Assembly (NCBI RefSeq): GCF_014205845.1
Contig: NZ_JACHCR010000001.1
Coordinates: 186,001-250,000, forward strand
Origin: Mucilaginibacter cryoferens
GTDB lineage: Bacteria > Bacteroidota > Bacteroidia > Sphingobacteriales > Sphingobacteriaceae
Direction of reading: 5' to 3'
Length of the DNA: 64,000 bases
The translations under genes and the position numbers were made by a program. Below, piece after piece: positions 3,525 through 7,413 of the stretch. Under the pieces are notes generated by a model, which did not search any database, had not been told where the DNA came from, and worked only from the letters and a program-made list of their open reading frames with translations. The stretch's first letter is position 1; every line of letters begins with the position of its first letter.

Positions 3525-4295
3525 TTACTCCCTTATCCCCTTTATAAACCCCGGTATCTTCTCCATATACCCATCCTCTGCCAGTAACTTCACAAACTTA
3601 CTGCCCACAATAGCACCATTAGCATAGGCGCAAGCCTGGGTAAAGGTTTTATTATCTGATATACCGAAGCCAATGATAGTTGGATTTTTAAGTTCTAACG
3701 CGTTAACCCGTTTATAATAGTCTTCAATACTATTGGTTAATTGTAAACTCCCCCCTGTTATTGATGATGACGACAACAGGTAAATAAAGCTGTTACTCAA
3801 TTCATCTATCTTACGGATACGCTCTTCGGATGTTTGGGGCGTTACCAAAAATATGTTACTTAAGTTGTTGTCTATAAAATAGCTGGCATACATAGCCTCG
3901 TACTCGTACATCGGCAGATCGGGTACTATTACACCATCCACGCCCACCTCGGCAGCTTTTTTGCAAAAGCGCTCAACGCCGTATTGTACTATCGGGTTAA
4001 AATAGCCCATCAGTAAAATAGGAATGGTTACGCGTTTGCGCAATTCGGCAAGTTCTTCAAACAGCAGGTTAAGGGTCATGCCATTTTCCAGGGCCTGCTC
4101 CGAGCTATGTTGAATAGTAGGGCCATCGGCAACCGGATCGGAGTATGGGAAACCAATCTCTAAAAAATCGGCACCTGCTTTTTCCAAAGCTTCGGCAATG
4201 TTAACCGTAGTATTTAAAGCCGGGTAACCTGCAGTGTAATATATGGATAACAGGTTATCCTTTTTTGTAGCGAAAAGCTTATTAAGTCGGTTCAT
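3525..4295 (-). CDS. trpA: tryptophan synthase alpha subunit
   Basis: 256 residues, normal length for TrpA. It cleaves indole-3-glycerol phosphate to indole and glyceraldehyde-3-phosphate within the alpha2beta2 complex. The TIM-barrel signature ADFLEIGFPYSDPVADGP contains the two catalytic acids, Glu46 and Asp57, and the phosphate loop region IGFGIS and AIVGSKFV is present near the C terminus. It is last in the leftward trpD-F-B-A operon, 88 bp after trpB. No strong terminator hairpin is evident between it and the next leftward gene. Confidence 0.97.
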   Translation of the reverse strand: MNRLNKLFATKKDNLLSIYYTAGYPALNTTVNIAEALEKAGADFLEIGFPYSDPVADGPTIQHSSEQALENGMTLNLLFEELAELRKRVTIPILLMGYFNPIVQYGVERFCKKAAEVGVDGVIVPDLPMYEYEAMYASYFIDNNLSNIFLVTPQTSEERIRKIDELSNSFIYLLSSSSITGGSLQLTNSIEDYYKRVNALELKNPTIIGFGISDNKTFTQACAYANGAIVGSKFVKLLAEDGYMEKIPGFIKGIRE

Positions 4296-4383: not shown

Positions 4384-5565
4384 TTAGAAATTGAAATATT
4401 TAATATAGGTATCTAAATCCTTATCTCCCCTGCCCGATATACAGATCACTACTGTATCATCTAACTTAAAGGTCATTTTCTCCAGTTGGGCCAGCGCATG
4501 GGCGGTTTCTATAGCCGGGATAATACCTTCCATCTGTGAGCATAACAGGCCTGCCTGCAATGCTTCATCATCGGTAATGCTGGTATATTGCGCCCTGTTT
4601 ATTTTATATAAGTGCGCATGCTGCGGACCGATACCCGGATAATCCAGACCGGCCGATATAGAATAAGGCTCCACAACCTGCCCATCCGGCGTTTGCATCA
4701 ATATGGTGCGGCTGCCATGCAATACGCCCTCCTGCCCTAAAAATGTAGTAGCCGCGGAATGGCCGCTGTTAATACCTTTACCTGCTGCCTCAACGGCAAC
4801 CAGTTTTACATCCTCGTCATCCAAAAAATGATAGAACATGCCCATCGCGTTACTGCCACCACCTACACAGGCCAATACATATTGCGGCAGTTCGTTCCCG
4901 GTTTGCTCAAGCAACTGCTTTTTAGTTTCTTCGGATATAATGGATTGGAAACGCGCTACCATATCGGGATATGGATACGGGCCAACTACCGAACCTATGA
5001 TGTAATGTGTATCAACCGGGTTACCTATCCAATCGCGTAAAGCCTCGTTGGTGGCATCCTTTAAGGTTTTACTGCCCGATGATGCAGGCATTACGGTAGC
5101 GCCCAACATTTTCATGCGCGATACGTTTGGAGCCTGGCGGGCCATATCAATTTCGCCCATGTAAACCACACATTCGATGCCCATGAGCGCGCAAACGGTG
5201 GCGGTAGCCACACCATGCTGACCGGCGCCTGTTTCGGCAATAATTCGTTTTTTGCCCAAACGCTTGGCCAATAATATTTGCCCTATAGCATTATTGATCT
5301 TGTGCGAACCGGTATGGTTCAAATCTTCGCGCTTAAAATAAATGTTGGCACCATACTTTTCTGAATACCTTTTGGCATGGTATAACGGCGAGGGCCTGCC
5401 CACATAATTTTTCAGCAGATCATCAAACTCGGCTTTAAACCCTTCGTCACTAATAATATTGAGGTATTGCTGCCTTAACTCTTCTACGTTTGGATACAAC
5501 ATTTCGGGGATGTAAGCGCCGCCAAAATCGCCATAGTAACCATGCTCGTTAACTCCGTACTTCAT
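4384..5565 (-). CDS. trpB: tryptophan synthase beta subunit
   Basis: 393 residues from the ATG at 5565. An in-frame TTG at 5595 would add ten residues, but family members start at [20 protein letters not shown], so the ATG is chosen. TrpB condenses indole and serine using PLP; the Schiff-base lysine is in [10 protein letters not shown] (Lys89 from this start), the glycine-rich phosphate site is VGGGSNAMG, and catalytic Glu lies in AETGAGQHG. With the ATG start it overlaps trpF by 17 bp, indicating translational coupling. Confidence 0.97.
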
Positions 5566-6193
5566 CTGTAATATGTTGTTTTTTGATGATATCAAATGCT
5601 TGTTTTAGTTTGCCAATGTCTTTAACACCGGGTGCCGTTTCAAAACGGCTATTCAAATCAACCCCATAAAACTGCGGATGGCTGATCTTTTTTATTTCTT
5701 CCAGATTATCAAGGCTTATGCCACCCGATAAAAAGAATGGGATATCTAACTTATAATTATCCAACATCGCCCAATCAAATGTTTTACCAGAACCACCATA
5801 GGCCGCGGTTTTGGTATCGAACAGCAAATAATCTACTTTGTTTACGTAATTATTAAGCTGATCGAAATCAAAATTCTCATCCAGGCCAAAAGCTTTAAAC
5901 ACTATCACTTTGTCCCTAAAGCTATTGCTAAACTCGGGCGGTTCATCACCATGCAACTGTATTACGTTAAAACCGTAAGTATCAATAAGCGAGTGAATAT
6001 TTTCGGCATCCTCATTAACAAATACCGCTGTTTTTTGGATAGATGCAGGTAGGTTTTGCATTGCATCCACAGGCAATTCTGCAATATATCGCGGCGAAGG
6101 TTTGTAGCATATAAAGCCTACATAATCTGGCCCTAAGGCGGTTACGGCTTGTATATTTTCGGGATCTTTTAGACCACAAACTTTTATTTTCAT
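5549..6193 (-). CDS. trpF: phosphoribosylanthranilate isomerase
   Basis: 214 residues. TrpF performs the Amadori rearrangement of phosphoribosyl-anthranilate to CdRP. The N-terminal [11 protein letters not shown] carries the catalytic Cys6, and [19 protein letters not shown] carries the catalytic Asp and the phosphate loop; [10 protein letters not shown] and GVDLNSRFE complete the barrel. Its ATG overlaps the trpD stop by 4 bp (ATGA type, 6190-6193). A trpC gene, which often lies between trpD and trpF in this phylum, is absent here. Confidence 0.96.
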
Positions 6194-7185
6194 GCCTGGT
6201 TTTGCAATAGAAGGTTAAAACTGTTCAGGGCCTTTTTTCCTAATAAAGCTTCTTCTGCCTCATAAAAACAATCGGCAAATGTTTTTTCGGGCGTAATAGT
6301 TCTGATGGCTAAAGCCGCGTTGGAGAGTACAACATTATTTTGAGCGTTAGTACCATCGGCATTAAGCACGCTGCTAAATATGGCCGCCGATGCGCTTACG
6401 GTATCGCCTCCGGCAATTTCGGCAGGGTTTAATCTTTCAAAGCCTAACGCTTCAACACTATTTATTTTTTCACCTTCGGCAGAAAAAGTTTTAAAATCGC
6501 AGGTAAGCGAAACCTCGTCATATCCCTCTAACGCGTTCACTATGGTATACTTAGTGCTCGACTTTTGATAAAGATAGGCAAACACCCGGGCAAGCTCTAA
6601 GTTAAACACGCCAACAAGTTGATTTTGCGGCTTTGCCGGATTAACCAGCGGCCCCAGCATATTAAAAAATGTTTTTACACCCAGTTCCCTGCGGATGGGC
6701 GCCACGGTTTTCATAGCCGGGTGAAATAATGGGGCATGTAAAAAGCATATGTTAGCTTTATCAATCCCGCGTCTTAATTTATCGGTATCGTTGGTAAACT
6801 GGTAGCCCAGGTACTCCATCACGTTTGATGAGCCACAACCCGATGATACACCATAGTTGCCATGCTTGGCTACTTTATAACCCGCACCGGCCACCACAAA
6901 CGATGCAAGGGTAGATATATTGAAAGTATCCTTACCATCGCCGCCGGTGCCACACAAATCAATCAATTCGCCGGTTTGCAGGTCAATAGGCAGGCAAAGC
7001 TCCAGCATGGCATCACGAAAGCCTTCCAGCTCATCAACAGTAATACTGCGCATGCAATAGGCCGTCATAAATGCGGCCATTTGCGAGTTATTGTACTTAC
7101 CCTGCGCAATGTTTATCAAAATGCCTTTTGATTGTTCCCTGCTAAAGGTTTTGTGTTCGAATAGATGATTAAGTATCTGTTTCAT
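6190..7185 (-). CDS. trpD: anthranilate phosphoribosyltransferase
   Basis: 331 residues. TrpD transfers phosphoribosyl from PRPP to anthranilate. The PRPP loop CGTGGDGKDTFNIST (about 78-92) and the KHGNYGVSSGCGSSNVMEYLG segment are intact, as is GPLVNPA. It is the first structural gene after the trp attenuator; trpE and trpG, which usually come first, are not in this window. The REPIN-like repeat ends 3 bp before the ATG, so the ribosome must start directly beside a GC-rich hairpin. Confidence 0.96.
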   Translation of the reverse strand: MKQILNHLFEHKTFSREQSKGILINIAQGKYNNSQMAAFMTAYCMRSITVDELEGFRDAMLELCLPIDLQTGELIDLCGTGGDGKDTFNISTLASFVVAGAGYKVAKHGNYGVSSGCGSSNVMEYLGYQFTNDTDKLRRGIDKANICFLHAPLFHPAMKTVAPIRRELGVKTFFNMLGPLVNPAKPQNQLVGVFNLELARVFAYLYQKSSTKYTIVNALEGYDEVSLTCDFKTFSAEGEKINSVEALGFERLNPAEIAGGDTVSASAAIFSSVLNADGTNAQNNVVLSNAALAIRTITPEKTFADCFYEAEEALLGKKALNSFNLLLQNQA

Positions 7186-7188
7186 GAT

Positions 7189-7288
7189 GCCAAGCCCCCT
7201 AACCCCCTAAAGGGGGAATTTTTGATTTATAATGTTTTGCCAGTCCGCTTTTCTTTATCCCTCCCCCTTCAGGGGGCCGGGGGCTGGC
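7189..7288. repeat. REPIN-like pair of inverted GC-rich palindromes
   Basis: About 100 bp. The left end reads GCCAAGCCCCCTAAC followed by a CCCCCT/AGGGGG hairpin. The right end on the opposite strand reads GCCAGCCCCCGGC followed by the same kind of hairpin (CCCCCTTCAGGGGG). The two ends are inverted copies around an AT-rich core of about 40 bp. The architecture is that of two REP sequences in opposite orientation (REPIN). It lies in the trp leader transcript between terminator and trpD. Confidence 0.75.
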
Positions 7289-7292
7289 CAAT

Positions 7293-7320
7293 AAAAAAGG
7301 GTTACCGTATGGCAACCCTT
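7293..7320 (-). terminator. trp attenuator terminator hairpin
   Basis: On the minus strand AAGGGTTGCC, loop ATAC, GGTAACCCTT form a 10-bp stem (one G-U) followed directly by a T-run (7298 down to 7293). The ascending arm GGGTTGCC (7318-7311) can alternatively pair with GGCAATTC (7359-7352) just after the leader-peptide stop, giving an antiterminator. This is the classical arrangement for ribosome-mediated attenuation. Confidence 0.88.
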
Positions 7321-7359
7321 CTGAATATTATGTTAAAAAAAACAAAAAACGGAATTGCC

Positions 7360-7413
7360 TTACGATATCTCGTTAAGCCACCACCAGTTATTGTTTAATG
7401 CGTTCATTTTCAT
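7360..7413 (-). CDS. trpL: trp operon leader peptide with three consecutive Trp codons
   Basis: 17 codons reading MKMNALNNNWWWLNEIS then TAA; a second in-frame ATG is at 7407. The three Trp codons occupy 7378-7386. The Leu-Asn-Glu-Ile-Ser tail can fold with sequence after the stop as a pause hairpin (CTTA and TAAG arms with CGA/TCG and loop GATA, 7377-7359). A ribosome stalled on the Trp codons would free 7352-7359 to form the antiterminator; one that reaches the stop would mask it and allow termination. Position, composition and competing structures together identify a trpL-type peptide; expression is inferred. Confidence 0.88.
   Translation of the reverse strand: MKMNALNNNWWWLNEIS

Follow-up and report, generated by a model that had tools for sequence, protein, structure and literature searches.

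In this study, we analysed a window of 64,000 nucleotides, positions 186001-250000 of contig 1 of the 7-Mb Mucilaginibacter cryoferens genome (G000), in which four tryptophan genes stand on the minus strand behind a Trp-rich leader in the order trpD-trpF-trpB-trpA. The first gene under the proposed control is trpD, encoding anthranilate phosphoribosyltransferase (6190-7185; TIGR01245, 294.6 bits), and it is followed by trpF for phosphoribosylanthranilate isomerase (5549-6193; PF00697, 133.6 bits), trpB for tryptophan synthase beta (4384-5595, start codon unsettled; TIGR00263, 591.5 bits) and trpA for tryptophan synthase alpha (3525-4295; TIGR00262, 227.1 bits), each score being above the cut-off of its model.

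An earlier note on this DNA had described, upstream of these genes, a 17-codon frame with three consecutive Trp codons, a pause hairpin over its stop codon, an antiterminator whose first strand begins directly after that codon, and a 10-bp terminator with a T-run; all of these were found again. The leader frame, MKMNALNNNWWWLNEIS*, runs on the minus strand from 7413 to 7360 and comprises 17 residues and a stop codon (7362-7360), with a second ATG at 7407; its reading as a leader peptide is based on its sequence and its conservation. The three Trp codons (7386-7378) are, from the sequence and the family comparison, the proposed stalling site. The 1:2 hairpin spans the stop codon (7378-7357; 7378-7370 paired with 7365-7357) and folds with -8.2 kcal/mol (z -3.07; 2/200 shuffles equally stable), its other evidence being coevolution. 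Directly after the stop codon lies region 2, the antiterminator strand GGCAATTC (7359-7352), identified from sequence and comparison, which can form 8 bp with 7318-7311, two of them G-U. Folded alone, the segment 7361-7311 gives a weak structure (-8.5 kcal/mol, z -1.35; 20/200 shuffles equally stable), so that the case for the antiterminator has to come from comparison. Region 3 (7320-7311; sequence, swap test and fold) can pair with either region 2 or region 4, and as the 5' arm of the terminator it forms 10 bp with the 3' arm, region 4 (7306-7297), from which a T-run extends to 7293 (region 4 with T-run, 7306-7293; sequence, fold and coevolution). The terminator fold (7322-7293) reaches -16.9 kcal/mol (z -6.14), a stability found in none of 200 shuffles, and that of the whole leader (7421-7290) -33.4 kcal/mol (z -3.11; 1/200). 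An inverted-repeat search of 7160-7330 with default lengths returned nothing, though the terminator is plain in both sequence and fold.

The genes trpE, trpG and trpC are found together on another contig, behind a second Trp leader, MIKNTNKNSWWHQLNLAAGYVFSQR*, which has its own promoter and terminator (leader and terminator at L031:720-870, about 285115-285265 of contig 3) and which, like the promoter of the trpD leader described below, was absent from the earlier note. The best NCBIfam model for TrpE was trpE_most, with 414.4 bits below the model cut-off of 517.7. Since the mechanically called trpE frame (GTG at 829 of L031) starts within the terminator region, translation of trpE probably begins at the ATG at 892. 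The trp pathway is thus split into two groups, each of which we infer to be read as one transcript, and Trp-leader attenuation would cover both halves of it in this genome.

Between the terminator and trpD, the window contains a dispersed GC-rich short repeat (7191-7290), to which the genome holds at least 45 matches, itself included (40 of 106 candidates scored). Two of the matches flank trpG in the other group, one on each side. In relatives, terminator and trpD are separated by 8 to 329 nt. By eye, the N-terminal residues NSPFRGAGGLGG of the trpG frame as listed (L305:1982-2050) resemble a translation of the repeat, which may mean that the start of trpG is miscalled or that the repeat has become part of the gene.

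Conservation of the Trp codons and of the alternative helices

TrpD matches were obtained in 135 of the 151 genomes of the family Sphingobacteriaceae, and the upstream regions of 90 of these were read (30 loci from the search and 60 spread over genera). A leader frame with WW or WxW is present in 84 of the 90. Under a strict rule (WW, an ATG start, at most 450 nt upstream of trpD), 80/90 regions contain such a frame, compared with 17/1800 dinucleotide shuffles, by which a chance frame is ruled out; on the opposite strand the strict WW frame occurs in 0/90. The scripted terminator was found in 82 of the 84 leaders, and the peptide outside the Trp run varies strongly between genera.

The six regions in which the script found no leader are of different kinds. 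In two loci of genus g3 (L035 and L037) the promoter box and the terminator are kept and no Trp codons precede trpD; in a third locus of this genus (L036) and in L050 nothing recognizable is left upstream of trpD; L092 has a single Trp codon, and L063 is cut by the end of a contig. Among 80 named trpD loci, which overlap the family genome set and hence are not an independent sample (74 are Mucilaginibacter, the rest being titled Bacteroidetes or Sphingobacteriaceae bacterium), a Trp-rich leader precedes the gene in 78, and by eye the two exceptions are a GTG start (L191) and a contig end (L257).

A comparable picture was obtained for trpE. TrpE has a match in 147/151 family genomes, and among the best 30 loci, which were read, 27 have a WW leader; the three others, all from genus g3 (L112-L114), show by eye a single Trp codon and have kept their terminators. 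In genus g3 the Trp sensor thus appears to have decayed in both gene groups. In a sample of the phylum, TrpE was detected at E <= 1e-100 in 45 of 198 genomes, all of one class, and in every one of the 40 loci read (39 outside the family and one inside) a W-rich leader frame stands before trpE, with a scripted terminator in 39.

Two further searches concerned other patterns and genes. The pattern TTTG-N-ATG-N-TGGTGG gave 315 matches genome-wide and 336 when read backwards, and is of no use for finding Trp leaders. For branched-chain leaders, no consistent combination of leader and terminator was seen among 16 ilvD loci, of which L294 alone has a candidate by eye.

We then compared the pairing partners across genera. 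In this partner-swap test, duplex energies of partner segments were computed within their own sequence and against other genera, and partners were permuted among genera, which are treated as exchangeable with no tree modelled; 82 sequences from 19 genera were used for trpD and 68 sequences from 28 genera for trpE. For trpD, partners from the same genus pair better than permuted ones in the 1:2 helix (mean -6.87 vs -4.10) and in the 3:4 helix (-15.43 vs -11.85), the observed value being reached in 0/2000 permutations each time, and changes in one strand have been compensated in the other. The difference is smaller for the 2:3 helix (-11.99 vs -11.27; 54/2000), chiefly because region 3, with its TTGCC core, hardly varies. 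For trpE, none of 2000 permutations reached the observed value for 1:2, 2:3 or 3:4. Compared with segment shuffles, the pairing energy falls in the lowest 5% in 51/82 trpD sequences for 2:3 and in 41/82 for 1:2, and in 23/68 and 25/68 trpE sequences, respectively. The tests left out two of the 84 trpD leaders (L025 and L074, without a scripted terminator, with a hairpin visible in both) and two of 70 trpE leaders (L159, without a scripted terminator, and L121, whose leader lies too far upstream). Visibly wrong scripted hairpins were kept (L080 for trpD; L107, L158 and L163 for trpE), as were the rows of L110 and L122 (trpE), for which the script had also taken a wrong WW site. Taken as they are, the swap tests support all helices, the trpD antiterminator most weakly; with its moderate swap support it is the least secure of them. 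The earlier note had made its case depend in part on the WWW peptide and the alternative stems being conserved in relatives, and in both respects it is borne out, by the Trp run in 84/90 regions and by the swap tests for the helices.

Probable attenuation and its alternatives

On this basis, the element is very probably a ribosome-mediated transcription attenuator of the trpDFBA operon. The switching logic of its regions 1 to 4 is that of the Escherichia coli trp attenuator. The response to tryptophan, the reading of the operon as a single transcript and each of the kinetic steps are what we infer from this layout. With ample charged tRNA-Trp, the leading ribosome would reach the stop codon at 7362-7360 and cover region 2, upon which regions 3 and 4 would pair and RNA polymerase would stop at the T-run near 7293. 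When charged tRNA-Trp is scarce, the ribosome would stall on the three Trp codons and mask region 1, leaving region 2 to pair with region 3, so that no terminator would form and the operon would be read. In a leader that is not translated, the 1:2 hairpin would leave 3:4 free to form, and transcription would stop. The last Trp codon is followed by region 2, recognized by a GGCA-like motif, at a median distance of 18 nt (interquartile range 17-18; 81/82 leaders), a gap that fits a stalled ribosome hiding region 1 and not region 2.

It could be argued that the terminator is fixed and merely dampens transcription into trpD, the Trp-rich frame before it having no regulatory role. The response to tryptophan is indeed deduced, and L035 and L037 of genus g3 keep the promoter box and the terminator without any Trp codons. 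However, 84/90 regions retain Trp codons in a peptide that otherwise varies, and a fixed terminator would not keep the 1:2 and 2:3 pairings that the swap tests detect, which makes this explanation quite unlikely. An additional role in trans, as reported for trpL of Sinorhizobium meliloti (PMC7298713), in which the peptide or the prematurely ended transcript would affect other messages besides attenuating its own operon, is in our estimation similarly improbable. In its favour, a small mRNA with almost no leader would be set free by termination, as in S. meliloti; however, outside its Trp run the peptide differs strongly between genera, which does not point to a conserved target of the peptide. 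Control through TRAP, a riboswitch or a T-box likewise involves a terminator ahead of trp genes, but that a Trp-binding protein or direct binding of tryptophan or tRNA should govern this one, with the frame incidental, is extremely unlikely, given that both the Trp codons and the coding frame are conserved and that the window has only two tRNAs at the Rfam gathering threshold.

Promoter position and the predicted start of the leader

Upstream of the frame, a promoter of the kind read by the primary sigma factor of Bacteroidota can be recognized from its sequence and from the spacing within the family. It consists of the -33 element TTTG (7452-7449) and the -7 box CATATTTG (7429-7422; consensus TAnnTTTG), which are 19 nt apart. 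TTTG near -33 has been described for promoters of Bacteroidota (PMC7366714), and in Flavobacterium psychrophilum the TAnnTTTG box is located at -12 to -5 (PMC9723704). As the box in our leader ends 8 nt before the ATG, this position places the predicted transcription start at about 7417, 4 nt before the AUG. The earlier note had remarked that translation in this phylum usually proceeds without Shine-Dalgarno pairing, and the remark is apt: the ribosome probably loads without such pairing, on an AUG preceded by about 4 nt of RNA.

The same arrangement recurs in relatives. Both promoter elements, with TTG 18-22 nt from the -7 box, are present in 75 of the 84 family trpD leaders, and in these 75 the distance from box to start is 2-17 nt with a median of 10, which corresponds to a predicted 5' UTR of about 6 nt; the predicted UTR is shorter than 10 nt in 67/75. 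The named trpD loci have both elements in 78/78 leaders (median distance 9; 63 with a UTR below 10 nt). For family trpE, counted in 26 of the 30 loci (L121 and L112-L114 being left out by rule), both elements occur in 21/26, with a median distance of 8 and a predicted UTR below 10 nt in 21/21. In the phylum sample the distances before trpE are mixed: both elements were found in 24/40 leaders, with a median of 10, values up to 40 and a UTR below 10 nt in 14/24, and a box of any kind in 36/40, with a median of 13 and a UTR below 10 nt in 18, so that the short start is less uniform outside the family. Of 83 trpD leaders, one of the 84 having no box, 75 have a promoter ending at most 20 nt from the start, compared with 11/1660 shuffles; the start was set to the first ATG in frame that follows the last box, a rule that favours the observed side somewhat. 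An SD-like tetramer is present in 1/83. The short 5' UTR of the family trp leaders is a prediction drawn from the position of the promoter.

By comparison, mapped UTRs have a median of 32 nt in Bacteroides thetaiotaomicron, where 3.7% are under 10 nt, and of 24 nt in F. psychrophilum, where 5.5% are leaderless (PMC9723704). These published lengths and the leaders of the his genes were used for comparison because the control with ordinary genes of the window, only 1/45 of which has a strict promoter within 150 nt, was uninformative. Among 15 hisG loci, 13 have a His-rich leader and 12 a box, and the distance from the last box has a median of 31.5 nt. The two short distances are 12 nt in L124, which belongs to another family, and 7 nt in L135, where the short box has no -33 element and stands behind a box with a -33 element at 28 nt. 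The spacing is thus ordinary in most his leaders, and the predicted short start sets the family trp leaders apart from them. His-rich leader peptides, for example MNGIALHHLHLHHHHVVIS, precede hisG in ten loci of genomes of the same genus (L126, L128-L130 and L132-L137); by eye these leaders have no intrinsic terminator, and a similar block, GTTTCTACGCGAAATAAC, lies between leader and hisG. At hisG of two other members of the class (L123 and L124) a terminator is visible. The his leaders of the genus are possibly attenuators of a translational or Rho-dependent type.

The near-leaderless start is the one point here that is worth following. With an AUG only a few nucleotides from the 5' end, a ribosome unable to use Shine-Dalgarno pairing could load as the RNA emerges. 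We tentatively propose, while leaning slightly against it ourselves, that selection has kept the trp attenuators near-leaderless in Sphingobacteriaceae and, with less uniformity, in other Bacteroidia, early loading of the ribosome serving to synchronize translation with transcription. On this proposal, terminator-type trp leaders would be near-leaderless, and the his leaders of the genus, which lack a visible terminator and mostly have 5' UTRs of ordinary length, would not. Should the near-leaderless start hold, these leaders would provide a ready system in which to study how ribosomes that do without Shine-Dalgarno pairing can load quickly enough to control attenuation.

Comparison with known systems

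The earlier note had considered such an attenuator noteworthy for Bacteroidota. While the element is real and conserved, this kind of switch is already catalogued for Bacteroidetes as Rfam family RF01692, which makes it less of a surprise than the note held; Weinberg et al. (2010) list Bacteroid-trp for Bacteroidetes with a 'y' for both RNA and cis-regulatory (PMC2864571). RF01692 describes a Bacteroidetes tryptophan peptide leader, and in relatives the matches above its cut-off precede trpD or trpE. The window element differs in its score: at gathering level, the Rfam scan of the window returned the two tRNAs and no trp leader family, and a permissive scan placed RF01692 at 7436-7311 of the minus strand with 37.9 bits (E 0.005 in 341 nt), below the cut-off of 49 bits, the model being aligned end to end (1-131 of 131). 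Whole genomes of the family were scanned with filters at which some weak matches are lost. In the M. cryoferens genome, the trpD leader is the single match at E <= 1 (E 0.0236), and the model does not find the genome's own trpE leader.

In these scans of the family, 8/151 genomes have a match above the cut-off and 83/151 one at E <= 1. Seven of the eight matches lie directly upstream of trpD and the eighth (G015) is on a contig without a TrpD match; a leader before trpD in the same genus (L012) scores 53.4 bits, above the cut-off. In 14 control genomes there was one match, in Bacteroides ihuae. A sample of the class gave matches above the cut-off in 9/197 genomes, five of which belong to one family (f12) and have it immediately upstream of trpE, and the trpE leader of L146 in that family reaches 76.2 bits. 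The trpD leader is therefore most likely, as judged from these scores, a divergent, sub-threshold relative by descent of RF01692. With 40/40 phylum-sample loci carrying one, Trp leaders before trpE extend far beyond what Rfam reports above its cut-off in the class (9/197). Among the papers listed by searches of open-licence main texts, none was seen that dealt with the mechanism of trp leaders in Bacteroidota or with their short 5' UTR. Within the phylum, 'strong clues' for leader-peptide attenuation before amino-acid biosynthesis operons have been reported for F. psychrophilum, although the word tryptophan is absent from the main text of that report (PMC9723704).

With the E. coli trpL attenuator the leaders share tandem Trp codons, the 1:2, 2:3 and 3:4 alternatives and a terminator before the structural genes; they differ from it in their predicted near-leaderless start and in having an SD-like tetramer in 1/83 only. 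The E. coli-type leader corresponds to Rfam RF00513 (Trp_leader), which has no match in the window at the gathering threshold and is absent from the 19 matches that the permissive scan listed up to an E of 5.

In their predicted start, the leaders resemble those of two bacteria from other phyla. The attenuator RNA of S. meliloti starts with the ATG of trpL (PMC7298713), and in Streptomyces lividans TrpL1, MFAHSTRNWWWTAHPAAH, is transcribed leaderless (PMC8079986). Those leaders have other promoters and precede trpE, whereas the window element precedes trpD and, at its predicted start, keeps a few nucleotides before the AUG.
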